Below, one piece after another: positions 13,456 through 64,000 of a DNA stretch of 64,000 nucleotides (position 1 is its first letter; every line of letters begins with the position of its first letter). The stretch comes from Dyadobacter sp. 50-39. GTDB taxonomy: Bacteria; Bacteroidota; Bacteroidia; Cytophagales; Spirosomataceae. Made by a program: the position numbers and the translations under genes. The notes beneath the pieces are model-generated. The model was given only the letters and a program-made list of their open reading frames with translations. It did no database searches and had not been told where the DNA came from. The stretch spans positions 62,001 through 126,000 of the forward strand of contig MKSR01000006.1 of assembly GCA_001898145.1 (NCBI GenBank), read 5' to 3'.

Positions 13456-13534
13456 GTTTGTCCGTTTTTTACAATCGTATCCGCTGTGGTGAACCGACAT
13501 TTGTGCTATCTATTCATTCAAACCACAGTGCAAC

Positions 13535-13918
13535 ATGAAATTGAACGCAGGCATTATTACTTCCAAAATTGCTGAAACCAAAGCATTTTACACGCAAATA
13601 CTGAACTTCGGCGTGACATTCGAAAATGAATTCTATCTACTGCTCCACACGCCGGGAGGGGGGGCGGAGCTCAGCTTCCTGCTGCCCGGGCATCCTTCAC
13701 AGCAGCCATTGTTCCATAATGCGTTCCAGGGACAGGGCGTATATCTCACTATCGAAGTAGAGGACGTAGACCAACTTTATAATGAATTGAAAAAGAAAGG
13801 GGTAACGATCCACATAGACCTCCGGAACGAGCCCTGGGGTGACCGTCACTTCGCAATTTCCGACCCGAACGGCATCGGTATCGACCTGGTCAAATATGCC
13901 CCGCAGCCTGAAAGTTGA
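13535..13918 (+). CDS. VOC-superfamily (glyoxalase/bleomycin-resistance fold) protein
   Basis: Small vicinal-oxygen-chelate protein of 127 residues with one beta-alpha-beta-beta-beta repeat pair. The opening strand ends in TKAFYTQILNFG and is followed by a central YLTIEVEDVDQLYNEL. The end GDRHFAISDPNGIGIDLVKY is the classical VOC C-terminal motif. These proteins include glyoxalases, dioxygenases and antibiotic-binding proteins; the sequence does not say which. It follows an AraC-type regulator on the same strand and may be its target. Confidence 0.85.
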   Translation: MKLNAGIITSKIAETKAFYTQILNFGVTFENEFYLLLHTPGGGAELSFLLPGHPSQQPLFHNAFQGQGVYLTIEVEDVDQLYNELKKKGVTIHIDLRNEPWGDRHFAISDPNGIGIDLVKYAPQPES

Positions 13919-24586: not shown

Positions 24587-24913
24587 ATGGGCCCATACGA
24601 TCAAGACGATGAGTTATATGATGAAGACCTCCCAGGAAACTACCCGGCGGGCGAAGACATTTACCGCCAGGGCCTTATCGACCCGGATATAGATCCTGAG
24701 GACACCTCCCGCACCAAACGCGCCCTGGATATCGACGCCGACGAATGGAACGAAAAATCCTTTGAGGACGATCTTACCGGCGATGATCTCGACGTTCCCG
24801 GATCGGAATATGACGATGAAGACGAGGAGATTGGCCGTGAGGACGAAGAAAACAACTATTACAGCCTCGGCGGCGATAACCATGAAAGTCAGGAAGAAAA
24901 CCAGGGCGACTGA
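24587..24913 (+). CDS. Small, highly acidic protein of unknown function
   Basis: I do not recognise a family. From the ATG at 24587 the protein has 108 residues, roughly two fifths of them Asp or Glu, with no Cys and no hydrophobic segment. Acidic tracts include DQDDELYDEDLPG and EYDDEDEEIGREDEENN. The reading frame is open further upstream to 24482, but the acidic composition begins exactly at the chosen start. It is probably soluble and largely disordered. It is followed by a strong terminator and is divergent from the dehydrogenase gene. Confidence 0.6.
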   Translation: MGPYDQDDELYDEDLPGNYPAGEDIYRQGLIDPDIDPEDTSRTKRALDIDADEWNEKSFEDDLTGDDLDVPGSEYDDEDEEIGREDEENNYYSLGGDNHESQEENQGD

Positions 24914-24934
24914 CATACCGCCATCCTGCCTACG

Positions 24935-48705: not shown

Positions 48706-49866
48706 TCAGGGCTTTCGGCGAAGCAATGTCAGCAGCAGAAAACTCACGATGAAACCTGCTGCGCCCACCGTTACAGCAAGGAGCGTGCCACCAAAAAAAT
48801 ATTGTACAAAGTTGACATGAATCGACTCCAGCGTCAGGTTGTGGGTGGAGGTGAGCTGCACCCCGTTGCGGTAAAACAACCCGCCGAACTGGTAGCTGGC
48901 GTAAATGATAAACGGGATCGCGGGCGGGATACTGATATGCGCGGCAGTCAGAAAAAGCACTTTGTTCATCCGGAACACGATCGATAGCGGTATCCCCACC
49001 ATCAGCTGGAATCCCCAGATAGGAACAATGCCCATAAAAAACCCGAAACCGATCGACTTGGCTTTGGTGAGGTTGTTTTCGCCCGGCTTCATCGCCTCGT
49101 CACGGATGATTTTCCAGAGGCCTTTTTTTTTTATAAACTGGAACAGCCGCTTTGGGAGATAATAAACGAGTGTGAGCGTCACCAGCCAGGTGTTGAGGAT
49201 GCTGATGCGAGTAAAATCCCTGAAAGGCCTGAAATGCGTCACCCGCTCGTTTTTATCGTAGATTACCTGAATGTTGATGGGGATGATCGGCACGTCTTTC
49301 CAGGCCATTTTGACGATCACTTCGATCTCCGTCTCGAATTTGGTCGTGAAAAGGGTCATTCTTTTCAGCGGCCCGAGGGGGTACAGGCGAAAACCGGTTT
49401 GCGTGTCCGGCAATGTAAGCCCGGTTTCAAACTTGAACCAGAAATTGGAAAACTTGTTGCCGAACGAACTCTTGCCCGGTACGCCCTCCTGCATCATGTT
49501 CCGTGAGCCCATCAGTAATGCACCAGGATTCTGCAAGGCCGCTTCGATAAAAAGGGGAATGTCGGAAGGCAGGTGTTGGCCGTCGGAATCGATCGTGATC
49601 GCATTCGCAAACCCGAGGCGTATGGCTTCGGCAAATGCTTTCCGCAGCGAAAAGCCCTTCCCTTTGTTTACGACATTGTCCAGCACGCGGATTCTGGCGC
49701 CATAGCCGTCCAGAATGCTCTTCGTATCGTCCGTGGAACCGTCATTTACCACAATCACCTCCTGCCCCGACGCATATTGCAAAACACCGTCGATCACCCG
49801 CCGCAAAGTATTGCGGTTGTTGTAAGTAGGAATGATCACGCAGCATTGAATGTCCGAGAGGGTCAT
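48706..49866 (-). CDS. GT2 glycosyltransferase fused to DUF2062 membrane domain
   Basis: 386 residues. The first 230 are a family 2 glycosyltransferase with VIIPTYNNRNTLRRVIDGVL, the nucleotide-binding VVNDGSTDDT, and the metal motif ITIDSDGQH. The C-terminal 150 residues are a DUF2062 domain with two or three transmembrane helices (GFGFFMGIVPIWGFQLMVGI). It is the last gene of the pigment operon, 17 bases after the dehydratase. The enzyme may transfer a sugar to the pigment or to a lipid. Fusions of this kind are common in flexirubin and aryl-polyene clusters; the exact reaction is not known to me. Confidence 0.88.
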   Translation of the reverse strand: MTLSDIQCCVIIPTYNNRNTLRRVIDGVLQYASGQEVIVVNDGSTDDTKSILDGYGARIRVLDNVVNKGKGFSLRKAFAEAIRLGFANAITIDSDGQHLPSDIPLFIEAALQNPGALLMGSRNMMQEGVPGKSSFGNKFSNFWFKFETGLTLPDTQTGFRLYPLGPLKRMTLFTTKFETEIEVIVKMAWKDVPIIPINIQVIYDKNERVTHFRPFRDFTRISILNTWLVTLTLVYYLPKRLFQFIKKKGLWKIIRDEAMKPGENNLTKAKSIGFGFFMGIVPIWGFQLMVGIPLSIVFRMNKVLFLTAAHISIPPAIPFIIYASYQFGGLFYRNGVQLTSTHNLTLESIHVNFVQYFFGGTLLAVTVGAAGFIVSFLLLTLLRRKP

Positions 49867-49883: not shown

Positions 49884-50255
49884 TTAAATGTAAGATTGAA
49901 AATTGCCCCGCGCTTTGAAATAGGTCTTTTCACCCTGCTTACCCGACGCGCTGACGTCGAGCATCTCCTCGCCCTTGTATTGGATATGAATGGTCAGCGC
50001 GGGTGTCTCGGCCGGGTTTAGTACTTCCAGAAATTTGCAAGTGCTCATTTCCTTCAAAGTGAATCGCTTTCCCAGCGCTTGGGACAAAACAGCCTTGACC
50101 ATTTCCAGCTGCACCACACCCGGCAGCACGGGTGAACCCGGAAAGTGCCCCTGAAATACCGGATGCCCGGCATCGATATGCAGCGTGCAGGTGATCTGCC
50201 CGGGTGCCTGGTCCAGGGTTGTGATGGTGTACAGATTACTCAGCGGCATGGTCAT
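49884..50255 (-). CDS. ApeI-like hotdog dehydratase (3-hydroxyacyl-ACP dehydratase)
   Basis: Hotdog-fold dehydratase of 123 residues. The catalytic His is in GHFPGSPVLPGVVQLEMVKA, the FabA/FabZ-type active-site stretch. It would remove water from 3-hydroxyacyl-ACP during polyene chain growth. In characterised aryl-polyene systems the ApeI enzyme works as a complex with a second hotdog protein, ApeP. The corresponding gene in this cluster (56182-56601) is interrupted by a stop codon. The start shares one base with the stop of the LolA-like gene (TAATG). Confidence 0.85.
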   Translation of the reverse strand: MTMPLSNLYTITTLDQAPGQITCTLHIDAGHPVFQGHFPGSPVLPGVVQLEMVKAVLSQALGKRFTLKEMSTCKFLEVLNPAETPALTIHIQYKGEEMLDVSASGKQGEKTYFKARGNFQSYI

Positions 50256-50887
50256 TACAGGTCTTTAAATAGGTTTTCGGCGATCGGCTGGTTGAATTTT
50301 TCCTGCTGGAACTTCATGGTACTTCTGTCGCCGCCTTTCTCGAAAAAAGAGAGCTCCTGCAAGCGGAGCGAACTTTTGGAGAAGTTCATCGCGATTTTGG
50401 AATAAATGCTTTTCAAACGGCGGTTCACCGGTGTAAGTACGATCTGGTACTGGTCCCCATCTTCCAGCACAGCCGAAGAAAATCCCTTATTTTGCTGAAA
50501 ATCACCGTTCACCAGGCCGATCATCAGCTCTTTGATCTGCGCTGCCATGCGCCCGGCCTGTCCCACATTCTTCTCCTTGTTCCCCTCCTGCACGCGCAGT
50601 TTGTCGCCGTTGATCAGGATAATGTACTTCGAAGGCGTCCGCTGTTCCCAGCGCATCTTGTCCTTTTGCTGGTAGTAAAACACGCCCGAGGATTTTTCCG
50701 GCTCTTTGAGCACCGCCAGGTATTTGTCTTCGGTGAACGACGCCTGAATGGACGACGTGCCCTGCGAGGTTCTCCGCAGTTCGGCAAGCACCTTTTCCGG
50801 ATTGGCCGCCGGCTTGAACGACTGGGCCGGTACCAAATGCGCCGTTAACATCACGGCCATTATCATCAATATTCTAATGCTTTTCAT
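50255..50887 (-). CDS. LolA-like outer-membrane lipoprotein carrier
   Basis: Periplasmic carrier of 210 residues with a signal peptide ending HLVPAQS. The LolA fold is indicated by the half-barrel strand pattern GTSSIQASFTEDKYLAVLKE, then SSGVFYYQQKDKMRWEQRTP and KYIILINGDKLRVQ. LolA carries lipidated molecules through the periplasm. Cluster-encoded relatives probably move the pigment lipid to the outer membrane. It overlaps the deacetylase gene by 14 bases and is followed immediately by the dehydratase gene. Confidence 0.85.
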   Translation of the reverse strand: MKSIRILMIMAVMLTAHLVPAQSFKPAANPEKVLAELRRTSQGTSSIQASFTEDKYLAVLKEPEKSSGVFYYQQKDKMRWEQRTPSKYIILINGDKLRVQEGNKEKNVGQAGRMAAQIKELMIGLVNGDFQQNKGFSSAVLEDGDQYQIVLTPVNRRLKSIYSKIAMNFSKSSLRLQELSFFEKGGDRSTMKFQQEKFNQPIAENLFKDL

Positions 50888-51650
50888 AAGGTTCCTTCCC
50901 GATCAGCCGGGGAAGCGGTTCAATTTTAATGCCCATTTCACGACAATGCCCGATGATATCCGGCAAAGTATCGGCCGTAAGCGGCAGATGGTCATGAAGC
51001 AGAACGATGTCTTTGGGTTTTAATGTTGAAATGATCTTTTGAATGAGCTGGTACTTGTTCTTCGCGCGTGTATCCATGCTCCTGAGCGACCAGCCGATGG
51101 ACTGCATTTCCAAATCCTTTAAGACGGCAGCATAGCGCGGGTTCGTCACCCCGAACGGCGGTCGGAAAAATGCGGGCGCCCTACCGGTAATGTCACGAAT
51201 AGCCTCGTTACACCGCAGCATATCCGTCCGCAGTTTTTGCCTGGAAAACAGCGCAATGAGGTAGTGATGGCTGTAAGAATGATTGCCAATCGTATGGCCT
51301 TCGTCCACAATCCTGCGCAGGAGTTCGGGATGCTGTACCGCCTTTTTCCCGATCACGAAAAAAGTCGCCTTCAAGTCGTTTTCAAGGAGAATATCGAGGA
51401 TACGGGGCGTCGAATCGGGGTCGGGGCCATCGTCGAAAGTGAGGGCAATGGATTTGCCGCCCGCTTTGCATTTGTTAATGGATTTGACAAAATAATTGGC
51501 CTGTATCTGCGCCGACCCGTAAGCGGTTACTCCCAAAAAGAGTATGGCAATGCCCGCCAGCACAAACCACAGGTAGTCTGTCTCCCAAAATATAATGGAA
51601 CTGAGCGCCGCTGCCGTAATGCAGAAGAATATGAGAAGGTTATGCTTCAA
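50874..51650 (-). CDS. Membrane-anchored polysaccharide deacetylase (NodB fold)
   Basis: 258 residues. Two N-terminal transmembrane helices (about 5-45) are followed by a NodB domain. Its motifs are LTFDDGPDPDSTPRILDIL (catalytic and metal Asp) and EGHTIGNHSYSHHYL (metal-binding His-x3-His). RPPFGVTNPRYAAVL and DIVLLHDHLPL complete the active site. This family removes acetyl groups from sugars. A role in a pigment operon is not obvious: it might trim a glycosyl or acyl decoration of the product. Overlaps both neighbours, so it is firmly in the operon. Confidence 0.87.
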   Translation of the reverse strand: MKHNLLIFFCITAAALSSIIFWETDYLWFVLAGIAILFLGVTAYGSAQIQANYFVKSINKCKAGGKSIALTFDDGPDPDSTPRILDILLENDLKATFFVIGKKAVQHPELLRRIVDEGHTIGNHSYSHHYLIALFSRQKLRTDMLRCNEAIRDITGRAPAFFRPPFGVTNPRYAAVLKDLEMQSIGWSLRSMDTRAKNKYQLIQKIISTLKPKDIVLLHDHLPLTADTLPDIIGHCREMGIKIEPLPRLIGKEPYEKH

Positions 51651-52575
51651 CGGCTTTCAATAGGGTTAGTCCCAGGTTGGTTTTTCTCAATGCATTCACA
51701 ATCAAAACATTCCTTACCCCGCCATTTGCTGCAAGCACATCCACAGCGTAATGCAATGCAAATGCCGACGCCGTTGGATAAATGCCCGCCAATGGGAGAT
51801 ATCCGGTGTTCTGCCGCGCACCGGACAGCGGGTTGCCGGTATGAAGTACCAGATCGATGTCGCCGATCTGCATCCCGTTCCGGTCCAGGAACGCATCTAT
51901 TTCCTCCTGCCCGTATTCCGCTCCGCCGCTGGTGTACACATCTGCCAGGCGGGCAGCGGCATTGCCTGCATTTGTACCGGAAAGAATGAAAAACGAGGCG
52001 GCAGAAGTGAGCGGCACAGGTGTTTCAAATGCCAGTCGGTCTGCAATATCATTCAGAATATCAATATGCTCGTCAGCCGCGCCCACGAGCACGTGACTGT
52101 CGCCTTCGCGCACGAGCATCGCCGCGTCGAACAGGGCGTGCTCGAAAGAGAGCGTATTCTGCGTATGGGTCATATTATAACCGTGATTGCCGAGGCTCAG
52201 CGAAATCTGCCCGGCCATGGTATTGTGCGTCGATTGAATGAATGAAGTCGGCGGAAGTAACCCCTCGACTGTAAGCGCGGTATTGAGGAATTTTTCGGTG
52301 TCCTGCAAACAGCCCAGGCCAGTCCCCACTACAATCGCGTCCGGCTGTTCAATACCCGCCTGTACCACGCAATCTTTGGCACACGCGACCGACATCCGCA
52401 GGATTTTACTCATCCGTCGCAGCAGTCCGGCATCAATATAAGCCTTATAATCAGGGCTGATCAACGCAGAAGCCGCATCCAACGGAACCAATGCGGCCGA
52501 AAAGCCTGCATGCCCGAATGTAGGCTGGTGTGAAATGGTGGACGCCGCCGATAGGTACAATGCCGGTTTACTCAT
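51640..52575 (-). CDS. Ketosynthase-like protein without active-site residues (chain-length-factor type)
   Basis: Thiolase-fold protein of 311 residues, about 90 shorter than a full ketosynthase. The place of the catalytic Cys reads MTHTQNTLSFEHALFDAA, with no Cys. The usual second His region is IYPTASAFALHYAVDVLA, without the GH motif. Residual ketosynthase features are AIVVGTGLGCLQDTEKF and FIQSTHNTMAGQIS. In aryl-polyene systems a Cys-less partner (ApeC) pairs with an active ketosynthase as chain-length factor. Here the active KS gene directly upstream (52568-53752, overlap eight bases) would be that partner. Role inferred. Confidence 0.82.
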   Translation of the reverse strand: MSKPALYLSAASTISHQPTFGHAGFSAALVPLDAASALISPDYKAYIDAGLLRRMSKILRMSVACAKDCVVQAGIEQPDAIVVGTGLGCLQDTEKFLNTALTVEGLLPPTSFIQSTHNTMAGQISLSLGNHGYNMTHTQNTLSFEHALFDAAMLVREGDSHVLVGAADEHIDILNDIADRLAFETPVPLTSAASFFILSGTNAGNAAARLADVYTSGGAEYGQEEIDAFLDRNGMQIGDIDLVLHTGNPLSGARQNTGYLPLAGIYPTASAFALHYAVDVLAANGGVRNVLIVNALRKTNLGLTLLKAVEA

Positions 52576-53752
52576 ATTTCGTCAAAACCAATGATGAATT
52601 ATTCCCTCCGAAACCAAATGAATTGGAAAGTACCGCATTCACCTCCGCGCCTATTTCCAGCCTGGTGACGGGCACCAGTCCCGTTTCCGCGATAGGCGTC
52701 CGGTAATTCAGGTTCGGAAAGAGGAGGTTATGCCGGATAGCCAGCACTGAAAACACGGCCTCGATGGCTCCTGCGGCCGCCAGGGTGTGTCCGGTAAAAG
52801 CCTTCGTAGAGCTGAATGGCGGAACGTGGTCCCCAAAAACATTCCAGAGCGCCACCGACTCTGAATGATCGTTGTTCTTCGTGCCCGTGCCGTGCGCATT
52901 CACGTAGGAGATCTGATCCAGCCCGATACCTGCACGGCGGATCGCATTCGCGATCGCCAAAGTGGCCCCTTTTCCGTCCGGCGAGGACGCCGTCTGGTGG
53001 TAGGCATCTGCTGCATTGGCCCAGCCGCTCACATTGCAAATGGGCTTGCTGCCCGACAATTCCAGGCTTTTTTCTCCTTCCAACAGCAAAAACCCTGCTC
53101 CCTCGCCCAGGTTCAGCCCGGCGCGGGATTCATCGAACGGCCTGCACCATTGGTCGTCGTAGATCATCAGCGAACGGAAACCGTCGATCGTGAACCCGCT
53201 CAATGCATCGGTACCTCCTACGAGCACGCGGTCGAGCGCGCCTTGCAGGATAAGCCGGGCTCCGAGCATAATGGCGTTCACACCCGAAGAGCAAGCCGTG
53301 GAAAGCGTGTTAATGTAGCCGGTAATGCCCAGCTCCTTCGCGATGCGCTCGGTTGTGCTGCCGCTGTCGTGTGTGGTGAGCAGGCGGTAATCGGGATTGT
53401 GTTGGGCTAAATAATCTTTATAAAAAACCTCGCTGCGGTCCATTCCGCCCACGGACGTGGAAGAAATAATGCCGGTACGGATCACGCCGGAGCGTTTACT
53501 GTCGCCCCAGGCCTCACGCGCCGCCTGCAACCCAAGCAAGGACGTACGCGAAACGTACTCCGTCCCTACGCCCAGTGCCGTGCGGAGCTCGTCGTTGGAA
53601 GCCTTCACTTCGCCGGCCAGCCCGGCCCTGGTGCCTTGCAGGTAATGCAGCGGCCCGATGCCCGACCGGCCCTCGCGCAATGCGTTCAGGTTCTCGTCCA
53701 CCGACATGCCAATGGCCGACACGACCCCGATACCGGTAATGCAAACGCCCAT
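52568..53752 (-). CDS. Beta-ketoacyl-ACP synthase (active, Cys-His-His)
   Basis: Ketosynthase of the FabF type, 394 residues. Active-site Cys154 lies in NTLSTACSSGVNAI; the two histidines are in YVNAHGTGTKNNDHSE and STKAFTGHTLAAAGAIEAVF. It would extend the polyene chain with malonyl-ACP. Its stop overlaps the Cys-less KS-like gene by eight bases, the arrangement expected for a KS/chain-length-factor heterodimer. The ACP gene lies 12 bases upstream. Confidence 0.9.
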   Translation of the reverse strand: MGVCITGIGVVSAIGMSVDENLNALREGRSGIGPLHYLQGTRAGLAGEVKASNDELRTALGVGTEYVSRTSLLGLQAAREAWGDSKRSGVIRTGIISSTSVGGMDRSEVFYKDYLAQHNPDYRLLTTHDSGSTTERIAKELGITGYINTLSTACSSGVNAIMLGARLILQGALDRVLVGGTDALSGFTIDGFRSLMIYDDQWCRPFDESRAGLNLGEGAGFLLLEGEKSLELSGSKPICNVSGWANAADAYHQTASSPDGKGATLAIANAIRRAGIGLDQISYVNAHGTGTKNNDHSESVALWNVFGDHVPPFSSTKAFTGHTLAAAGAIEAVFSVLAIRHNLLFPNLNYRTPIAETGLVPVTRLEIGAEVNAVLSNSFGFGGNNSSLVLTKYE

Positions 53753-53764
53753 TAGGTGTGGTGG

Positions 53765-54025
53765 TTAAGCTGCGTTTCTTTTACGGATATATGCGGCCAT
53801 CGTATCGATGGACTTGAATGCCTCCTTGCCCTCTTCCGGGTTGGTGAGCTGGATACCGTGGTATTTTTCCAGCAGCACGATCAGTTCGAGCGCGTCGATC
53901 GAATCGAGCCCTAGTCCCTGGTCGTTGAAAAGCAGCGCATCGTCCGCGATATCTTCCACCGACAGGTCTTCCAGGTTGAGCTGTTCGATAATCTGTTTTT
54001 TTAGATCTTCTTTTAAACTATCCAT
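53765..54025 (-). CDS. Acyl carrier protein
   Basis: Carries the growing chain on a phosphopantetheine arm. From the ATG at 54025 it has 86 residues, the usual size; the longer open frame to 54178 lies inside the preceding gene and is not family-like. The attachment site is Ser42 in GLGLDSIDALELIV. Surrounding acidic helices are typical. It is one of two carrier proteins in the cluster, the other being at 57470; the two may serve different chains or starter and extender. Confidence 0.9.
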   Translation of the reverse strand: MDSLKEDLKKQIIEQLNLEDLSVEDIADDALLFNDQGLGLDSIDALELIVLLEKYHGIQLTNPEEGKEAFKSIDTMAAYIRKRNAA

Positions 54026-54051
54026 TTTGCTGATTAATTGAGCGTCTGTTA

Positions 54052-54675
54052 CTATGCCGCAACCGAACCGGCTTGCGAGAGGTGAAGGAGATTTTCGCTG
54101 CTGAATTCCATTCCGCTTTCTTGCTCTTCCACCAAAAAAAGGAAAACATCCGTGCTGTCCGCTGTTACTTCCAGCCACCCCCCAAGCAGCGCCCGGCTTC
54201 CCGAGGCCAGCAGTATCTGGTTGTAGTCCAGGTAAAAGCCAGGGGTGAATTTAGGCAAAACAGCAAACAAATTCTCACCGTACCATTTGTTGAGGATGGC
54301 TATTTCGCCCAGCACGATATTAGGCAATGTATACACAAAAAGCGAAGGGCTTGGCGAGCCGCCATGCTCGTAAGATTGTATAAAGCGGCGGTCGGTCACG
54401 GCGCTTGACGAGGCATTGGCAAACACCATTGCGATCTCATCGTCGGCATACGCTTCCGGAAATCCCGGATTCGCCCGCTTGATGAGTTCCGAAGCCAGGT
54501 ACCCGGCCTGCGAAAGCGCATCCATTTTGTAAAATTTGGGGTATACCAATTCCTGCTGCCTGTATAGCTGCTTGAACCAGGAATCCTCCGAGCTGCTGTC
54601 GCGCCGGGCGATCACTTCGCCGTTCACGAGGCATTCGTCGGCCCGCAGGTTGCAATATGCTGTAATCACTTTCAT
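54052..54675 (-). CDS. Short ketosynthase-like protein of the pigment cluster
   Basis: 207 residues, half the length of a ketosynthase. The middle, MVFANASSSAVTDRRFIQSY followed by SPSLFVYTLPNIVLGEIAIL, matches the N-terminal half of the thiolase fold as found in cluster-specific KS-like proteins. No active-site Cys or His motif is present. It is not a decayed gene: the frame is intact and coupled by ATGA overlap to the preceding KS gene. It may be a non-catalytic subunit that shapes the substrate channel or recruits ACP; function unknown. Confidence 0.7.
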   Translation of the reverse strand: MKVITAYCNLRADECLVNGEVIARRDSSSEDSWFKQLYRQQELVYPKFYKMDALSQAGYLASELIKRANPGFPEAYADDEIAMVFANASSSAVTDRRFIQSYEHGGSPSPSLFVYTLPNIVLGEIAILNKWYGENLFAVLPKFTPGFYLDYNQILLASGSRALLGGWLEVTADSTDVFLFLVEEQESGMEFSSENLLHLSQAGSVAA

Positions 54676-55754
54676 AAATCCCTGATCATCAATGAAGCAT
54701 TCCCGCCTCCGAAGCCCGAGGCTGTTTTAAGAATGGTCCGCAGCTTTTTCGGTTCGTTTTCAACCATGATATTCAAGGGAATGGAAGTACCCGCGTCGCG
54801 GTAACCCATGCTCCTGATCATCATCCCATTCCGTATCATTTGCATGCAAACGGCCGTTTCGATCACACCCGCAGCACCGAGCGTATGCCCGAAATAGCCT
54901 TTCAGGCTATTCAGCGGCTTATCCGACAACGCCAGGCGATCGAATGCGATCGCTTCCATTTCGTCGTTGAAAACCGTGCCCGTACCGTGGGCGCAAATGA
55001 AATCGATTTCCCCGGCATCTGCTCCGTGCTTCCGCATCGTACGCGTCACGCTCCGCACCAGCCCCTCGCCCGTACGCGAAGGCCCCGAAATGTGGTTGGC
55101 ATCGTTGGCGCTCGCGCCTGTGAGGAGTTCGAGCGGAGCATTTTTAAAAACCGACCGGGTTGCGGAAACCAATACCGCCCCGCAGCCTTCTCCCAGCGTG
55201 ATACCATTCCGGGCCGCATCGAATGGGGCACACGGCTTATCACTCACGGCAAAAAGGGATTGAAAACCGTACAGCACGAAATCGGAGGCGACATCACAGC
55301 CGACTACAATGACATGGTCGTACTGGCCGGCTTCCACCATATTACCCGCCACATTGACCGTCAACACGCCGGAAATACACGCATTGGAGATCACCAGCGG
55401 TAAATTTGCGAGCTTGAATTGTTCCTTTGCCGAGACGCACGTTTCACTGAATTGGTCGTGCAGATTGTCGTCCAGCGCTCCTTTGGTGGAACTGATCAGC
55501 ACGATTGTCCGGTCGGAAACCAGAATGGAAGCGTCGATGCGCTCTTTCAGCGTCGCCATTGCCTGCGTTATCAGTCGCTGAAAACGCAAAGGCCCGTTCA
55601 GACCGGTAATTCTGGACAAATGAATGGCTTCCTGGTTAAACCCTGCATCAGGGATAAGCGCAATGCCGCTGCGATTTTCGCGGAGCGCCTGCCAGTTATC
55701 CTCCGCAGTGTCGCCCAGCGGGCTTACGATGACCTCTGCACCAATGTAGATCAT
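54672..55754 (-). CDS. Beta-ketoacyl-ACP synthase (second active copy)
   Basis: Ketosynthase of 360 residues from the ATG at 55754, which overlaps the thioesterase stop as ATGA; a start 21 bases earlier would overlap more. Catalytic Cys126 is in VISNACISGVLTVN; the histidines are in FICAHGTGTVFNDEME and LKGYFGHTLGAAGVIETAV. It is a little shorter than usual. It may carry out the first condensation on the aromatic starter or act in the alkyl branch. The short KS-like protein encoded next could be its partner. Confidence 0.87.
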   Translation of the reverse strand: MIYIGAEVIVSPLGDTAEDNWQALRENRSGIALIPDAGFNQEAIHLSRITGLNGPLRFQRLITQAMATLKERIDASILVSDRTIVLISSTKGALDDNLHDQFSETCVSAKEQFKLANLPLVISNACISGVLTVNVAGNMVEAGQYDHVIVVGCDVASDFVLYGFQSLFAVSDKPCAPFDAARNGITLGEGCGAVLVSATRSVFKNAPLELLTGASANDANHISGPSRTGEGLVRSVTRTMRKHGADAGEIDFICAHGTGTVFNDEMEAIAFDRLALSDKPLNSLKGYFGHTLGAAGVIETAVCMQMIRNGMMIRSMGYRDAGTSIPLNIMVENEPKKLRTILKTASGFGGGNASLMIRDL

Positions 55755-56164
55755 ATGTCGTACTGCGCTTTCCATTCCTTGTAAAAATCCGGAGAGATCA
55801 GTTCCAGCTCGCGGGAATCGCGGTCGAGGAACACCTGCATCGTTTTACCCGTAGCGCAAACCTGCCCTGTTGTGACGTTGATCACCTCGTATTCAAACTG
55901 GATTTTCGCCGACTTGGTGGGAACATATTTAGTGATGACCTTGATCACCTGGCCGTAATAAACTGGCGCCTTATGATCGATTTCCGACTTCACAATAGGC
56001 GTCACAAAACCTTTTGCGTGGATATCGAGGTATTCCAATCCGAATTTTCTCCCAAATGCCTCCCTGCCGTCCTCAAAAAATTTCAGATAGTTACCGTGCC
56101 ACACCACACCCATGGCATCGGTCTCGCTGAATCGGATATCTATATCTATTTCGGAAGAAATCAT
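55751..56164 (-). CDS. Acyl-CoA/ACP thioesterase (4HBT hotdog family)
   Basis: Thioesterase of 137 residues. The 4-hydroxybenzoyl-CoA thioesterase motif is complete: DIRFSETDAMGVVWHGNYLK with the catalytic Asp. A second conserved block is YGQVIKVITKYVPTKSAKIQ. It would release the finished acyl chain or edit mis-primed ACPs, as ApeK-type enzymes are thought to do. It is coupled to the KS gene downstream and lies 17 bases after the interrupted dehydratase gene. Confidence 0.88.
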   Translation of the reverse strand: MISSEIDIDIRFSETDAMGVVWHGNYLKFFEDGREAFGRKFGLEYLDIHAKGFVTPIVKSEIDHKAPVYYGQVIKVITKYVPTKSAKIQFEYEVINVTTGQVCATGKTMQVFLDRDSRELELISPDFYKEWKAQYDI

Positions 56165-56181: not shown

Positions 56182-56601
56182 TTATTCGCTTACGACGATT
56201 TTTAGTTCACATCCCAGCAATATACGCCCATCCATGAAACTTTCGCCCTTTACAAGGTAAATATTTCCCAACTGGTGCAAGGGTGTGACCACGGTGCGTA
56301 TCGTAGCACCAACCGGAGGCAACTCAGTCACAAGCACTTTGCTCACAGCCCCGATAAAACCGATTTTAGGCTCCCCACCCTCCTCCCTGTCCAGGTAACC
56401 AAACGATGCCGCGCAAGTCTGCGCCACATGCTCGATCAGCCCTGTTTCCTAAAAAAAACCGTCCTGCACCAATGCATTGTCGAACGTAACCGTGAACTCC
56501 GACTCAAACCGCTCCCGCGATGCGCTCACAAGGCTATCGATCATCACAAATGGCGGGCGATGGGGAATAAAGTCCGTGATGGCGTCTTTGGCGACGATCA
56601 T
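56182..56601 (-). pseudogene. ApeP-like hotdog dehydratase gene with in-frame amber codon
   Basis: From the ATG at 56601, which overlaps the acyltransferase stop as ATGA, the frame reads IVAKDAITDFIPHRPPFVMI and continues to LVQDGFF. It then meets TAG at 56451-56449 (codon 51 of 140) and continues in the same frame as ETGLIEHVAQTCAASFGYL to a normal stop at 56182. Sequence on both sides is family-like, so this is a nonsense substitution, not a frameshift. It lies just after a run of eight T's. Possible explanations: real inactivation, a sequencing error, or read-through. A GTG at 56427 could restart only the C-terminal 81 residues. Confidence 0.85.
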
Positions 56602-57467
56602 GATTGAAAAAAATTGAAGTAATTAAACCATTGCTCCGGAAAAGCCTTCACTTTCCTTTCGAGCTCTTCCACGTACAGCTGCGCGATCTCTTCCGGCTTC
56701 ATTTTCGCTTCGATTGGCTTCGTACAGCTCAAATGGTAGCTGTATTTGCCATCCTTGGCTGCAAATACGAAGGTTACCGGTGCATTGAACTTCGATGCGA
56801 TCACGAACGGGCCGTAGGGAAACCTCGCCTTGCGTCCCAGAAAATCCATTTCGATGAACCGCGCCCCTTCCAGGTAACGGTCGGCATGGATGGCCACAAA
56901 TTCATTATTGACCAATGCATTTCGAATGGAAATAACATGCGAGAGATCGTCCTTGATCGCGATCACTTTGAACCGTGAGCCGCCGGTGGACAAATCCATG
57001 TACTTTTTGATGTTCTCGACCTCCGCGTCCAGCAAGACGATGTTGATCGTCGGCGTAATGCGGCCTTTGAGCAGGTTCCCGGCCGTTTCCCAGTTACCCA
57101 GGTGCGCACTCAGCAAAATCCCTCCCCTGCCTGCATCGCGGATATCGATCAGGTATTGTTCATTTTCAAAAACATGAGAGAATTGCCGGTCTTTCCCCAG
57201 CAGGAATGCAGCCCGGTCCACGAGCGTCTGCCCGAAAATATAGAAGTTCCTGCGCGCCATTTTGCGGGCATTGGAACCGCTGATGTGAAGGGTGTTCTGG
57301 TAAAAATCCAGCAAGGCCTTCTTCGGCCTTGCCGCAAACAGGTAATAGTAGTAAGTAACCACCCGCAGGAGCCCGTAGGCAAACCCGAGCCCCAGGGTAT
57401 TGATGATAAACAGGAAAATTTTGTAACCCGTCAGCGATCCTTTGGTCTTACCGTCCCAACGGCTCAT
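56598..57467 (-). CDS. LpxL/HtrB-type lysophospholipid acyltransferase
   Basis: Membrane acyltransferase of 289 residues with an N-terminal hydrophobic helix (IFLFIINTLGLGFAYGLL). The catalytic HX4E motif is SAHLGNWETAGNLL, and the second conserved block is AIHADRYLEGARFIEMDFLG. It resembles lipid A late acyltransferases. In pigment clusters such enzymes are believed to attach the polyene acyl group to an outer-membrane lipid or alkylresorcinol. Two bases separate it from the ACP gene upstream, which may supply its acyl donor directly. Confidence 0.87.
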   Translation of the reverse strand: MSRWDGKTKGSLTGYKIFLFIINTLGLGFAYGLLRVVTYYYYLFAARPKKALLDFYQNTLHISGSNARKMARRNFYIFGQTLVDRAAFLLGKDRQFSHVFENEQYLIDIRDAGRGGILLSAHLGNWETAGNLLKGRITPTINIVLLDAEVENIKKYMDLSTGGSRFKVIAIKDDLSHVISIRNALVNNEFVAIHADRYLEGARFIEMDFLGRKARFPYGPFVIASKFNAPVTFVFAAKDGKYSYHLSCTKPIEAKMKPEEIAQLYVEELERKVKAFPEQWFNYFNFFQS

Positions 57468-57469
57468 TC

Positions 57470-57736
57470 TTACAATGCCAGTTTCTTGCGAACAAGCTGA
57501 TAGAAATCACCGAATGTTACGATTTCTTTGAAATCTTCGCCGGTGAGCTTGATATTGAGGTTTTCATCGATCAGCACAACCAGGTCGACGTAGTCGAGAC
57601 TGTCCAGATCCAGCGTTTCTTTCAGACTGTTTTCAGGAAGAATCAAATCCCGGTCCACCTCGAATTCCTCAGATAAAAAGTCTCTGGTCTCTTCAATTAC
57701 TTCTTCCCAACTCATTTTAACGTCGTTAGCATACAT
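57470..57736 (-). CDS. Acyl carrier protein (first gene of the long pigment operon)
   Basis: Carrier protein of 88 residues from the ATG at 57736, or 81 from the alternative ATG at 57715. The phosphopantetheine site is Ser46 in TLDLDSLDYVDLVVLIDE. The promoter box ends only five bases before 57736, so transcription may start at about that codon. The 57715 start (MSWEEVIEETRDFLSEEF) is therefore quite possible. It heads the run of overlapping genes down to 48706. Confidence 0.88.
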   Translation of the reverse strand: MYANDVKMSWEEVIEETRDFLSEEFEVDRDLILPENSLKETLDLDSLDYVDLVVLIDENLNIKLTGEDFKEIVTFGDFYQLVRKKLAL

Positions 57737-57970: not shown

Positions 57971-59188
57971 TCAGATTTTCCGCACGATAAGCGTTGAATT
58001 GGTCCCGCCGAAGCCGAACGAATTGGAGAGGAAGCAGTTGATTTCCTGCTCTTTGGTTTCAGCGATGATATTGATGCTGGCGGAATCCTCGTCGGGATTT
58101 TCGAAGTTGATGTTTGGCGCGATAAAAGCGTTCTGCATCATCAGCAGCGAATAGACGATCTCGCTTGCGCCCGCCATCCAGCATTCGTGCCCGGTCATCG
58201 ATTTTGTGGAGCTTACGGGCACATTGCCGCCGAACACCTCAAAAATAGCCCGTGCCTCGCTGCCGTCCCCTACGGGCGTGGAGGTGGCGTGTGCATTAAT
58301 GTAGTCGACTTCACCGGTGGTAATGCCCGCTTGTTTCAATGCCATTTGCAGAGAGCGCGTCTGGCCGTCGATACTGGGATTGGAAATATGGTCGCCGTTG
58401 GAGGAAAAGCCGTAGCCGATCAGCTCTGCCAGAATCGGCGCGCCCCGTTTTACGGCGGCTTCGTAAGATTCAAGGATCACGGTAGCCGCGCCACCGCTCG
58501 GAATAAGTCCGTCGCGGTCACGGTCGAACGGGCGGGAAGCTTTTGTCGGCTCGGATTCGCGGACAGAGAAGGTGCCTAGGCCATCGAAGCTCGCCATCGC
58601 CGACGCATTGATTTCCTGCGCCCCCCCGCATATCACACGCTCCTGCAAGCCCTGGCTGATCATCAGGTAACCCATGCCGATCGAATGCGAACCCGACGCA
58701 CATGCCGCGCTCAATGTGAAATTGATGCCTTTTAACTTAAAGATCGTCGAAAGGTTCATATTCACCGTGCTGTTCATATTCTGGAAAATAGCACCGGAGC
58801 CGATCAGCGTCGTGTCATGTTTTTCACGGACTTTATCTACCGCCTCCACCACTGACGCCGCCGTGCTGTCGTTGCCATAAATAATGCCGGTTTCAGTTTG
58901 TTCGAGGAAATCGATATCGAGGCCTGAATGCGCCAATGCCTCGTGCGTAGCCATGTATGCGTATACCGCGGGCTGGTGCATACCCACGCGCTGGCGGCGT
59001 GAGAGGTAGTTTTTCAGATCGGGCTCTTCCACCATGCCCGTAAGGGCCGAGCGGAAGCCGAAATCCTTCCTCACCTGATCGAACACAATGCCGCTTTTAC
59101 CGGCATATAACGATTGCGTAACCTCGCCCAGGTTTTTGCCCAGGCAAGAATAAATGCCGATCCCGGTAATGACAACCCTCTGGCTCAT
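57971..59188 (-). CDS. Beta-ketoacyl-ACP synthase (third active copy)
   Basis: Full-length ketosynthase of 405 residues. Catalytic Cys163 is in FTLSAACASGSHSIGMG; histidines are in YINAHATSTPVGDGSEA and STKSMTGHECWMAGASEIVY. It closely follows the FabG-like reductase gene (three bases) and belongs to the ammonia-lyase unit. By position it may act with tyrosine ammonia-lyase and ketoreductase on early aryl intermediates; the division of labour between the three ketosynthases is inferred only. Confidence 0.9.
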   Translation of the reverse strand: MSQRVVITGIGIYSCLGKNLGEVTQSLYAGKSGIVFDQVRKDFGFRSALTGMVEEPDLKNYLSRRQRVGMHQPAVYAYMATHEALAHSGLDIDFLEQTETGIIYGNDSTAASVVEAVDKVREKHDTTLIGSGAIFQNMNSTVNMNLSTIFKLKGINFTLSAACASGSHSIGMGYLMISQGLQERVICGGAQEINASAMASFDGLGTFSVRESEPTKASRPFDRDRDGLIPSGGAATVILESYEAAVKRGAPILAELIGYGFSSNGDHISNPSIDGQTRSLQMALKQAGITTGEVDYINAHATSTPVGDGSEARAIFEVFGGNVPVSSTKSMTGHECWMAGASEIVYSLLMMQNAFIAPNINFENPDEDSASINIIAETKEQEINCFLSNSFGFGGTNSTLIVRKI

Positions 59189-59191
59189 GGA

Positions 59192-59923
59192 TTATGAGTA
59201 AATTCCTCCGTTGATATTAATAACCTCCCCCGTAATATACGCAGCTTTATCGGAAGCCAGGAAGCTCACCAGGTGCGCTACTTCCTCCGCCTTGCCAAAA
59301 CGGTTCATCGGTATCATTTGTTTCAATTCGTCCTCATTGAGGTCTTTGGTCATGTCGCTGGTGATGAAACCCGGCGCCACGGCATTGACGGTGATTTTGC
59401 GCTTGGCAACCTCCTGTGACAGGGATTTCGTGGCTGCAATGATCGCGCCTTTCGCCGCCGAATAGTTGGTTTGCCCTGCCACGCCCTTCATGCCCGACAC
59501 CGACGCGATGTTCACGATCCGGCCCGAGCGCTTCCGCAGCATTTGCTGGATGGCATTCTGGGTTACATTATAAAGTCCTTTTACAGAAATATTCAGCACA
59601 TCGTCCCAATCCTTTTCCGGCATCCACATAAAGAGGCCGTCGCGGGTAATGCCTGCATTATTCACGAGCACACTGATGAATTTCTCTTCGTTCTTTTCGC
59701 GCCAGCCATTCAATGCCTCGTCCACTTCTGCCTTGTTCTGCACATTGAAATGCAACAGTTCACCGCTGCCGCCGTCAGCCTGTATCTGCGCCAGCGTTTC
59801 TTCGGCAGCTGCCTGGCTGGAGGCGTAATTGACCAATATGTGTAAACCATGGTCCTTGGCCAGCTGGACGGCGATCGCCCTGCCGAGCCCCCTGGATGCA
59901 CCGGTTACCAATGCGCAATTCAT
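59192..59923 (-). CDS. 3-oxoacyl-ACP reductase (FabG-like SDR)
   Basis: Short-chain dehydrogenase/reductase of 243 residues. The cofactor motif is VTGASRGLGRAIA at residues 6-18; NNAG follows at about 88-91. The catalytic Ser, Tyr154 and Lys158 lie in ASVSGMKGVAGQTNYSAAK. It ends in ITGEVININGGIYS as FabG enzymes do. It reduces 3-ketoacyl-ACP with NADPH in each polyene extension cycle, the role of ApeQ in aryl-polyene clusters. It overlaps the ammonia-lyase gene by four bases. Confidence 0.92.
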   Translation of the reverse strand: MNCALVTGASRGLGRAIAVQLAKDHGLHILVNYASSQAAAEETLAQIQADGGSGELLHFNVQNKAEVDEALNGWREKNEEKFISVLVNNAGITRDGLFMWMPEKDWDDVLNISVKGLYNVTQNAIQQMLRKRSGRIVNIASVSGMKGVAGQTNYSAAKGAIIAATKSLSQEVAKRKITVNAVAPGFITSDMTKDLNEDELKQMIPMNRFGKAEEVAHLVSFLASDKAAYITGEVININGGIYS

Positions 59924-61449
59924 AAGTGGAATGGGGTTTCTTTGATGTATTCAAAAACGGCGGCAATGCTCTCAAACTGCGGCACGTCGTCGGTTACGAA
60001 CTTCGCACGCTCGCGGATCTGCGCATAAACCGACTTCGCATTCGGCGAAAGTTTCTCCCTCTCTTCCGGATGCAGCAGGTCTATCGCCTGGCAAATGGCC
60101 ATGATGTGGATCGACATCACCTGGAATGCGTTTTCAAGGACCTGCTTGGCAATGACTGCCGAGTTGGTACCCATGCTCACGATATCCTGGTTGTCGTTAT
60201 TATTGGGAATACTATGAATGTAAACGGAAGTCGATAGTGCCTGGCTTTCGGCCGTCGTGGACGTAGCAGTAAACTGCACGCCCTGGAAACCGAAGTTCAA
60301 ACCCCAGGTTCCCGCATTGAGGAACGGCGGGAATTTACCGTTCAGCTTGTTGTTCATCAGGAAGTTGAGCTGGCGTTCCATCAGCATGGTGAGCTTGGTC
60401 AGTACCAGTTTCACCTTATCCATTTCCAGTGAAATATAGTCGCCATGGAAATTACCGCCATGGAAAACGTTATCGTCTTCCGGCCGCACAATCGGGTTAT
60501 CATTGGTCGAATTCAACTCATTTTCAACCACTTCCTGCGCATATTGGATCGTATCCAGCACGGGCCCCAGGATCTGCGGCACGCAGCGGATCGAATAGTA
60601 TTCCTGTATTTTTCTTTCAAACTCCGTTTTCTGCATGGCCGTATCGTCGCGGAAAAGCTCCTCGCGGCTGCGTATCAAACCGCTGCCGGCCACAAAGTCG
60701 CGCATGTGCTGCGCCACCACTTGCTGGCCTTTGTGATGCTTGACGGCATTCAGCTGCCTGGAGAAAGAGTCGTCGAACGATTCAATGGCCTCATTGATCA
60801 TCGACGAAGCCGTAATCGCCCACTGCACCAGACGTTTGGCATAAATCAGGTTGATAGCCGCCATCCCCGTCATGCACGACGTACCATTAATGAGCCCCAG
60901 ACCGTCACGAAGCTCCATTTTGAGCGGCTTAATGCCTTTTTCGGCGAGTACCTCACCGGTCTTACGCCGCAAGCCATGGTCATATACAAAGCCCTCCCCG
61001 ATCAGGTTCAGGCCCAGGTGCGAAAGCTGGACCAGGTCGCCGCTCGCGCCTACGCTGCCGTGTTCGAAGATTTCCGGCACGACCCCGTTGTTCAGAAATG
61101 CCACCAATTGCTTGATCACGGCCGTGCTTACGCCGGAATTGGCCTGTAAAAATGAATTCAGACGCGCGAGCATCACCGCACGGGCGTATATTTCGTTCAG
61201 CGGCTTCCCTACCCCGCTCGAATGGCTGCGGATGAGGTTATATTGCAGATTATTGAGCTGGTCGGTCTCGATACGGTATTGCGCCATCGGGCCAAAACCG
61301 GTATTGATACCGTATATGATTTTGTCCTTGGAGAAATTCGTTAAAAAAGCGAATGATTGGGATACTTGATGGAGGGTGTCTTCGGCTAAGATAAATTCCT
61401 TCTTTTCAAAAGCATACTGCTCGATCTGAGCTAATGAAATACGATTCAT
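59920..61449 (-). CDS. Tyrosine ammonia-lyase of the HAL/PAL family
   Basis: Deaminates an aromatic amino acid to supply the aryl starter, 509 residues. The MIO prosthetic group forms from Ala135-Ser136-Gly137 in EHGSVGASGDLVQL. Catalytic Tyr46 is in IIYGINTGFGPMAQY. The selectivity pair is Ser75-His76 in LIRSHSSGVGKPL. The protein closely resembles, from memory, the tyrosine ammonia-lyase of Flavobacterium johnsoniae, with shared blocks such as QFTATSTTAESQALSTSVY and HSIPNNNDNQDIVSMGTNSA. 4-Coumarate is thus the expected product, matching flexirubin biosynthesis. A histidine ammonia-lyase role is less likely because no hut genes are present. Confidence 0.9.
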   Translation of the reverse strand: MNRISLAQIEQYAFEKKEFILAEDTLHQVSQSFAFLTNFSKDKIIYGINTGFGPMAQYRIETDQLNNLQYNLIRSHSSGVGKPLNEIYARAVMLARLNSFLQANSGVSTAVIKQLVAFLNNGVVPEIFEHGSVGASGDLVQLSHLGLNLIGEGFVYDHGLRRKTGEVLAEKGIKPLKMELRDGLGLINGTSCMTGMAAINLIYAKRLVQWAITASSMINEAIESFDDSFSRQLNAVKHHKGQQVVAQHMRDFVAGSGLIRSREELFRDDTAMQKTEFERKIQEYYSIRCVPQILGPVLDTIQYAQEVVENELNSTNDNPIVRPEDDNVFHGGNFHGDYISLEMDKVKLVLTKLTMLMERQLNFLMNNKLNGKFPPFLNAGTWGLNFGFQGVQFTATSTTAESQALSTSVYIHSIPNNNDNQDIVSMGTNSAVIAKQVLENAFQVMSIHIMAICQAIDLLHPEEREKLSPNAKSVYAQIRERAKFVTDDVPQFESIAAVFEYIKETPFHL

Positions 61450-61595: not shown

Positions 61596-64000
61596 ATGCT
61601 AGGAGATTTACTATTAAGGCTGAACAAATTCCTTTCCAGTCACAAAGCCGCCTTTTTCCTTAGCCTGCTAGTCGTTGTCAGTATCCTCGTGGCCGGTATT
61701 GCGCGGCTAAAAGTAACCGAAAGTATTTTCGCGACGCTACCAAAGGGTAAAAGCTTCGAAGAGTTCAATCGTTTGGTCGAAAGTAAAAACATCATCAACC
61801 AGATCGTCCTCTCCCTCGAATTACCTGCCGAAACGGACACCGAGGCCGCGCGGGAACTGGCCGAAAACTTTACCGATTCGCTGGGCCGCTACACCAACGG
61901 CTACGTGCGCAATATCCAGGCCGAGCGCCCGAACGTACAGGAAGACGTCTACCAATATGTATACAGTCACTTTCCGCTGCTCATCGAGCCTTCCTATTAT
62001 AGTCACATTCACCCGCGCCTTATTCCCGACTCGATCCGTGCGTCGGTTACTTCCACCTACAACCAGCTGCTTACGCCCGGTGGCTCTTTTCTGAAACAAT
62101 TTGTACTGAACGACCCGCTGGGCATTACCGGCAGGTATTTCAAAGACCTCAACGCCGCCAACAACAGCAATGCGATGGTAATGGACGACGGCATTATGTT
62201 CACCGCCGACCGCAAAAGCGTCCTCATCTTCGCGTCCACCAGCTTTGATTCGGGGGCTTCGGACAAGAATGTGGAGCTGTTTGAATTAATGGAGGCATTC
62301 AAAACCAAATGGAACCGCCAGCACCGCTATAACAAGTTCTCCTATTTCGGTACCTTCGAAATCGCTGCCCGGAATGCGATCCAGGTCAAACAGGATTCCT
62401 ATTTCACCTCGTTCCTCGCGCTGGCAGGCATTCTGGCGCTGCTCATCGCCTATTACCGCAAGCTGCTGATACCGGTCTATATCACCATGCCGGGCATTTT
62501 CGGCGCTTTGTTTGCGCTGGGGATCATCGGCTACGTCCGGCCCGAAATTTCCGGCATTTCCCTTGCGACAGGTGCAGTAATCTTCGGTATTCTGCTCGAT
62601 TATGCATTCCATTTTTTCACACACCTCCGCCACACGCATTCCATTCCCGTGGCCATCAAAGAAGTAAGCGGGCCGCTGCTGACGGGCAGCTTCACCACCG
62701 TCATGGCATTCAGCGCATTGCATTTTGCCAACTCCACCGTTTTGCAGGATTTCGGGCTGTTTTCGTCGCTGGCACTTTTCGGGGCGGCGCTGTTCACCCT
62801 CACCGCATTGCCGGTGATCCTCTCCACCACCCGTTTTGATATACAAAAAATACCCGGCGAGCACAGCTCCTTTCGCATTCCGACTATTCCCGACAAATGG
62901 CGCGGCGCTACATTAGCCGGTATTGCGGTACTGACCGTCATATTCCTCTATTTCTCGGGCGGCACCGAGTTCGACGCCAGTTTTGAAAACCTCAGCATCC
63001 AGGATGCGGAGCTGAGCGGGCGCGAGGAAGCGCTCACAGGCATTAACCCGCGCAAACAGAAGCGCATTTACGTCTTTGCATCCAATCCGCGCCGCGCCGT
63101 GGCCGAGCAGATTAACCACAATGCTTATCAAAAACTGGCTGCATTGCGGAGCGAAGGCCGCATCGTCAGCTTTGTATCTTCCGGTTCGCTGCTCATTCCG
63201 CAAGACCTTAAACAGGAGCGGATGCGCCGCTGGCAGGATTTCTGGACGCCCGGCCGCACCGATTCCACATTCCGCGTTTTCAACCAGGCAGCTGCCCGGA
63301 ATGGCTTCAATGCCTATGCATTCAATGATTTCAAGGGCTGGATCGCCGGGCGGAGCAGTTCCAATGTGTCGCTCGATACCCTTTTCAACGAGTTGGGCAT
63401 CGATAACCTGATCGACGTCAAAGCTTCCGGTACCACGTTCATTTCCACCGTAGTCGCCGAGCAATCCCAGCTTACCGATGTGAAAAAAGAACTGCGGGCT
63501 ATCGATGGCGTGGCGCTTTTCGACCGGGGTGAGCTCGCGGGCGAGTTGCTGACCATGGTGAAGGACGATTTCAATTACCTGCTATTGATATCGGCTTCCA
63601 TTGTGTTCTTTACATTATTAATCGTGTACGGACGCATCGAGCTCACATTGCTTTCCTTCCTGCCGATGGTGATCAGCTGGATCTGGATTTTGGGCATCGC
63701 AGCCATGCTTGGTATCAAATTCAATTTCGTGAATGTGATCGTGACCACCTTCATTTTCGGCTTGGGCGACGATTTCAGCATTTTCGTCACCGACGGACTT
63801 TTGAGCAAGTACAGATCGGGCAAAGACACGCTCCGCTCCTACCAGGCAGCCATTGCATTGTCCGCAACCACTACGCTGATAGGTACCGGCGTGCTGATTT
63901 TCGCCAGGCATCCCGCGATCCATTCGATTTCGCTCATCAGCGTGCTCGGCATTGTATGCATTCTGTTCATTTCTTTCGTATTCCAGCCTGTCGTCTTCGA
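61596..64000 (+). CDS. MMPL/RND-type exporter, 3' end beyond the window
   Basis: Large membrane exporter, 801 residues visible from the ATG at 61596, no stop before the edge. A first transmembrane helix (FFLSLLVVVSILVAGIARL) is followed by a periplasmic domain. A five-helix block comes next (about 265-430), then a second periplasmic domain and a further helix group (from about 650), the RND/MMPL duplication pattern. Typical pieces are ATGAVIFGILLDYAFHFFTH and TTFIFGLGDDFSIFVTDG. It is divergent from the tyrosine ammonia-lyase gene and probably moves the pigment or its lipid precursor out of the inner membrane. Confidence 0.87.
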   Translation, partial: MLGDLLLRLNKFLSSHKAAFFLSLLVVVSILVAGIARLKVTESIFATLPKGKSFEEFNRLVESKNIINQIVLSLELPAETDTEAARELAENFTDSLGRYTNGYVRNIQAERPNVQEDVYQYVYSHFPLLIEPSYYSHIHPRLIPDSIRASVTSTYNQLLTPGGSFLKQFVLNDPLGITGRYFKDLNAANNSNAMVMDDGIMFTADRKSVLIFASTSFDSGASDKNVELFELMEAFKTKWNRQHRYNKFSYFGTFEIAARNAIQVKQDSYFTSFLALAGILALLIAYYRKLLIPVYITMPGIFGALFALGIIGYVRPEISGISLATGAVIFGILLDYAFHFFTHLRHTHSIPVAIKEVSGPLLTGSFTTVMAFSALHFANSTVLQDFGLFSSLALFGAALFTLTALPVILSTTRFDIQKIPGEHSSFRIPTIPDKWRGATLAGIAVLTVIFLYFSGGTEFDASFENLSIQDAELSGREEALTGINPRKQKRIYVFASNPRRAVAEQINHNAYQKLAALRSEGRIVSFVSSGSLLIPQDLKQERMRRWQDFWTPGRTDSTFRVFNQAAARNGFNAYAFNDFKGWIAGRSSSNVSLDTLFNELGIDNLIDVKASGTTFISTVVAEQSQLTDVKKELRAIDGVALFDRGELAGELLTMVKDDFNYLLLISASIVFFTLLIVYGRIELTLLSFLPMVISWIWILGIAAMLGIKFNFVNVIVTTFIFGLGDDFSIFVTDGLLSKYRSGKDTLRSYQAAIALSATTTLIGTGVLIFARHPAIHSISLISVLGIVCILFISFVFQPVVF

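Follow-up and report, generated by a model that had tools for sequence, protein, structure and literature searches.

The accessible text of PMC3992019 describes flexirubin as chemotaxonomically relevant and sets out the flx cluster of Chitinophaga pinensis, which extends from flxA to flxY and encodes two dehydratases, FlxF and FlxS. The same text cites a spontaneous flexirubin-negative mutant of F. johnsoniae that was complemented by part of its cluster. For aryl-polyenes, PMC8041823 gives ApeI/ApeP, in the part of that paper available, as a heterodimer with a single active site, and within the genus studied here Dyadobacter sp. HH091, to which the alkali (KOH) colour test was applied, has been shown to make flexirubin (PMC9606717, available excerpt). 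The window analysed here, a stretch of 64,000 nucleotides from Dyadobacter sp. 50-39 (contig MKSR01000006.1, positions 62,001 to 126,000 of the forward strand), shares with the C. pinensis cluster, as far as the accessible account goes, FlxA, ketosynthases, a reductase, two dehydratases, LolA, a deacetylase, a glycosyltransferase and an exporter. The two clusters differ in that one of the two dehydratase genes of Dyadobacter, assigned to FlxF by gene order only, is interrupted by an in-frame stop codon.

The flexirubin cluster of the window

The interrupted gene lies in one run of genes for ketosynthases, a reductase, acyl carrier proteins, two dehydratases, a thioesterase and an acyltransferase. 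On the minus strand this run comprises FlxA, the flexirubin tyrosine ammonia-lyase (59920-61449; NCBIfam NF053541, 806 bits against a cut-off of 700), a ketoreductase of the short-chain dehydrogenase type (59192-59923), a ketosynthase with its catalytic Cys and His motifs (57971-59188), an acyl carrier protein with a DSL site (57470-57736) and an LpxL-type acyltransferase (Lip_A_acyltrans; 56598-57467) that shares its last 4 bases with the start of the broken gene. On the other side of the broken gene (56182-56601, minus strand) and on the same strand are a 4HBT thioesterase (55751-56164), a ketosynthase that keeps its Cys and His motifs (54672-55775), a conserved cluster protein of 207 aa with no Pfam match (54052-54675) and a second acyl carrier protein (53765-54025; ATG start, 86 aa), for which the family and alignment comparisons used 53765-54043. 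These are joined by a further ketosynthase (52568-53752), a ketosynthase-like protein that lacks the active-site Cys motif and resembles a chain-length factor (51640-52575), a polysaccharide deacetylase (50874-51650), the LolA2 of flexirubin clusters (50255-50887; NF053544, 146.8 bits against a cut-off of 125), an intact ApeI-like partner dehydratase with the GHFPG histidine and the helix glutamate (49884-50255), and a family 2 glycosyltransferase with DUF2062 (48706-49866), all on the minus strand. An intact MMPL-type exporter is encoded on the plus strand from 61596 to the end of the window at 64000 and runs on to 65459. Past this exporter, two ORFs at 65482-68260 with the N-termini VGSGLGG and IGAGPAG, of nucleotide-binding type, resemble oxidoreductases, perhaps of the cluster, and are approximately full-length and stop-free in two relatives.

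A preliminary description made from the sequence had called this a pigment cluster and compared it with known aryl-polyene systems. A pigment cluster it is, and by family assignment its precise type is flexirubin (flx), as FlxA and LolA2 both pass their NCBIfam cut-offs. Comparison with the conserved ORFs of relatives bore out the statement that none of the other cluster genes is interrupted, and the further statement that most of its genes overlap holds narrowly, at 8 of 15 junctions with the ATG of the second acyl carrier protein at 54025 and 9 of 15 with a GTG, all starts being predicted.

The interrupted ApeP-like gene and its codon 51

A profile built from 15 intact relatives of the interrupted gene had its best match among FabZ dehydratases (E 2.5e-5); the second of its 17 matches, at E 1.1e-4, was to chain B of PDB 6qsr, which we take to be ApeI/ApeP. 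The ApeI-like protein in turn matched chain A of the same entry at E 6.8e-6, second of 24 matches. None of the 15 relatives reached the gathering cut-off of the Pfam ApeP model PF22817 (best E 0.17, in 1 of 15), and the gene is therefore named ApeP-like by its position and its partner; the name given in the preliminary description agrees with the position and the 6qsr match and goes beyond what the Pfam model returns for these relatives. The interrupted protein itself matched no Pfam family at E 0.01, and an intact relative (L034) scored 30.3 bits with the NCBIfam FabZ equivalog, below its cut-off of 113. The helix glutamate and the histidine of the HFP motif are catalytic residues of FabZ. 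In the ApeP-like proteins of the genus Glu57, which aligns with the helix glutamate, is kept in 46 of 46 relatives, while residue 49, which aligns with the HFP histidine and with the His of 6qsr_B, is His in 4 of 46 and Phe in the window. We infer that this pattern would fit a single composite active site with the His supplied by ApeI and the Glu by the ApeP-like subunit. On gene order only, the broken gene would be the counterpart of FlxF.

The minus-strand frame from 56601 to 56182 consists of 50 codons, a TAG (56451-56449), 88 codons and a terminal TAA, which makes a gene of 139 codons and a stop with the interruption at codon 51. The preliminary description had reported this amber codon, flanked on either side by in-frame family sequence, with a single base change as a sufficient cause, and each of these points is confirmed. 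The TAG is present in the sequence, the protein written with an X at the stop has a match that spans residues 6-137 or more in 46 of the 47 other genus genomes, and a C-to-T change from CAG, the codon of 29 of 46 relatives, is enough to produce the stop. The T of the TAG closes a run of eight T's (56451-56458, minus strand; GGT TTT TTT TAG), so that C-to-T lengthened a run already seven long when the T of the adjacent GGT is counted, a codon that is GGC in the two nearest relatives, G031 and G017. Slippage on this run had been dismissed as a rescue in the preliminary description and we reject it too, both shifted frames meeting stops and losing the family sequence.

A split, two-part protein was likewise considered. 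A possible re-initiation ORF (GTG, 81 aa; 56182-56427, minus strand) begins at residue 59 and codon 51 precedes Glu57, so that this residue is in neither piece. With the stop found in none of the 46 relatives as well, the two-part protein was rejected.

The genus search covered one genome per species, and no other isolate of the same species was among the matches. All 15 of the named loci matching the gene belong to Dyadobacter, with protein identities of 66 to 92%. Forty-six of the 47 other genus genomes carry the gene, open in every case, and their codon 51 reads CAG in 29 (G031 and G017 among them), GAA in 7, ACG in 3, CTG in 2, CAA in 2 and other sense codons in 3, which makes Gln the residue in 31 of 46. 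The comparison of the codon in related genomes, proposed in the preliminary description, thus found no homologue that shares the TAG. The remaining genome of the same genus, G008 (91% complete), has no match to the flexirubin lyase or to the ApeP-like gene, both of which are found in the other 46.

Readings of the stop codon

The reading we favour, and hold to be likely, is that a C-to-T change has recently placed a nonsense codon in the gene for the ApeP-like dehydratase, in a cluster whose other genes are all intact, with the flexirubin polyene predicted to be lost or strongly reduced. One C-to-T transition would have changed CAG to TAG at codon 51, and translation would end after 50 residues, leaving a fragment without the central hot-dog helix and without Glu57. 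Deprived of its ApeP-like partner, ApeI would be unable to form the composite active site, 3-hydroxyacyl intermediates would stay undehydrated and the flexirubin aryl-polyene would be absent or poorly made. In addition, 284 bases ahead of the thioesterase start would go untranslated, and this may reduce expression of the downstream genes, from the thioesterase to ApeI. The natural pigment mutant was one of three readings in the preliminary description and is the best supported of them, the stop being unique and no spare copy or suppressor having been found. The search of the strain's own genome returned no second copy of the gene (next matches E 0.05 and 0.4), and rescue by a spare copy was rejected. 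Two observations speak against a nonsense mutation with loss of function, namely that conserved sequence past the stop is equally expected of a functional gene that is read through, and that ApeI has both His and Glu and might act as a homodimer.

That the stop is instead a base-call or assembly error, the C after the T-run having been called T in an intact gene whose product still serves to make flexirubin, we consider possible but on the whole unlikely. Errors of base calling cluster at the ends of homopolymers, and the site is such an end. The stop is also known from one draft assembly, of 7.7 Mb in 48 contigs. To place the lesion in its surroundings we compared the window with the conserved ORFs of three relatives (51 of G031, 51 of G017 and 39 of G011). 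The ApeP-like gene was the only real gene with a stop in its body among approximately 50 conserved window genes; the stop was flagged against G031 and G017, while among the G011 ORFs a shadow ORF had taken the place of the gene, and a separate alignment with G011 shows the same stop. The remaining stops listed lie in over-extended start regions or shadow ORFs. A candidate second broken gene at 24591-24914 was rejected as a spurious Arg-rich ORF of G011 that has stops in G031 and G017 too. At 13532-13906 the relatives have an ORF of about 155 aa, of which only some 124 residues have an aligned counterpart in the window. Over the next 18 kb, all 16 ORFs of G031 and all 16 of G017 have a match, and the only stops were one in an over-extended start and one three codons from a C-terminus. 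As neither a frameshift-like break nor a second body stop turned up in the window genes and the next 16, the assembly looks clean here, which argues against an error, as does our judgement that substitution errors in assembled contigs are probably rarer than natural pseudogenes. The absence of any other lesion in the cluster, on the other hand, is also what an error would predict.

The state of the gene bears on both readings. Changes private to the strain's own branch were counted by comparison with G031 and with as many as five outgroups, the number being two for ApeI and for the glycosyltransferase. Leaving out the stop, the ApeP-like gene has 5 non-synonymous and 12 synonymous private changes against 150 and 310 in the 15 other cluster genes, two of the 5 private amino-acid changes fall after the stop, and all 29 residues invariant in the genus are kept. 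The lesion is absent from orthologues, as is expected of a pseudogene (stop in 0 of 46), and the relaxed selection that should follow such a lesion is not seen in these counts; a slow erosion of the whole cluster along this lineage is not seen overall either and was rejected. In a simple mixture the unconstrained fraction of the branch has a best estimate of 0 and an upper bound of about 0.3, a rough age bound given the small counts and the spread of private N/S among the other cluster genes from 0.12 to 1.47. The highest own-branch private N:S belongs to the ketosynthase at 54672-55775, with 28:19 against 13:22 on the G031 branch in raw counts. Since the ApeP-like gene has not decayed, the stop would have arisen within about the last third of the terminal branch or would not be real, and the lack of decay thus counts towards a base-call error as well as towards a recent mutation. 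The interpretation given in the preliminary description stands in this respect only in part: its pigment mutant is supported, and an error, which it did not list as a cause and implied only through its proposed refutation, has to be added.

A real stop with the pigment kept, whether by an ApeI that suffices or by read-through, appears improbable to us when the two routes are taken together. The first of them, in which dehydration is carried out by an ApeI homodimer or by the FabZ of fatty-acid synthesis and pigment is still made, has on its own a slim chance. The FabZ homodimer uses the pair of histidine and helix glutamate, and in each of the 4 genomes that were compared the ApeI-like protein has both, the histidine as part of GHFPG. 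The distribution of the two genes speaks against it. Within the family, 53 of 222 genomes carry a FlxA-type lyase at E 1e-100 or below. An ApeP-like match accompanies it in every one of the 53, such matches being found in 55 of 222 genomes overall, two of them weak. In an order-wide draw of 390 genomes the lyase was found in 52 (E at most 1e-120; 18 genera) and an ApeP-like match in 51 of these 52 and in 55 of all 390; the exception, G320, has an assembly of 84% completeness in which 381 bases separate the lyase from the edge of its contig. Pooling the family and order draws, 80 of 81 distinct lyase-bearing genomes have both genes, these genomes being related to each other and hence not independent tests. 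The stop in the ApeP-like gene occurred in the strain's own genome only, in the family and order-wide searches alike, and an ApeI-only pathway was not seen among the lyase-bearing genomes of either. G008 was considered as a case of ApeI alone and rejected, as it has no match to 9.8 kb of the cluster, lyase included. This co-occurrence argues against ApeI sufficing alone, a reading of the preliminary description that is now disfavoured, and suggests that the second dehydratase subunit may be obligatory in flexirubin synthesis. Also against ApeI sufficing, most deletions of core aryl-polyene genes abolish the pigment in E. coli, according to the available portion of PMC8253772. In another genus of the family two adjacent ApeP-like genes were observed in each of two genomes (G146:C12:212471-213288 and G141:C1:1559357-1560051).

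Very little weight can be given to the second route, in which the UAG is read through at a useful frequency and yields a little full-length protein. The coding sequence past the stop is still conserved, as this reading would have it, and one could speculate that a UAG after a U-run is leaky enough for a scarce catalytic subunit and that leaky termination sets flexirubin output, an idea to which we attach scarcely any probability. A recoded stop should be conserved in orthologues and this one is found in 0 of 46, which gives no sign of selected recoding. No CUA anticodon was found among at least 36 tRNAs (150 of 301 first-look candidates scored), and an amber-suppressor tRNA was rejected on these grounds; the sole tRNA-Gln among those at least 36 has the anticodon UUG. 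Release factors RF1 and RF2 are intact, altered release factors having been rejected once a TAA in the RF2 gene under the RF1 model vanished under the RF2 model. Among 51 hand-picked window genes TAG is the terminator of 5, TAA of 26 and TGA of 20, and TAG is an ordinary stop in this genome. Read-through, the last reading of the preliminary description, is thus unsupported: nothing speaks for recoding, and the codon is an ordinary recent nonsense change or an error.

Comparison with described pigment systems

Taken together, our analysis points to a probable loss of pigment by ordinary mutation in this strain, or else to a sequencing error at this base, and not to unusual decoding. The finding reaches little beyond this one strain. 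If the stop is confirmed, the strain would be a ready test of ApeI working without ApeP. Flexirubin being a taxonomic marker in the phylum, a fresh nonsense allele would also explain a flexirubin-negative strain among positive relatives. In the open-licence literature, in the portions available, there was no report of a flexirubin dehydratase gene with a naturally occurring nonsense allele.

Like ApeI and ApeP of the aryl-polyene clusters, the two dehydratases of this cluster are small hot-dog proteins, each matching one of the two chains of 6qsr. They differ from that pair in that the Dyadobacter ApeP-like proteins fall below the Pfam ApeP cut-off and that His at residue 49 is the exception. 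The nearest parallel to the lesion itself is found in the flexirubin-negative mutants of F. johnsoniae, as far as the accessible account describes them. Whereas there the phenotype was seen and complemented and in Dyadobacter the lesion is known from sequence alone, the two cases would share the same pattern, in which one function is lost by mutation from a cluster that is otherwise complete.
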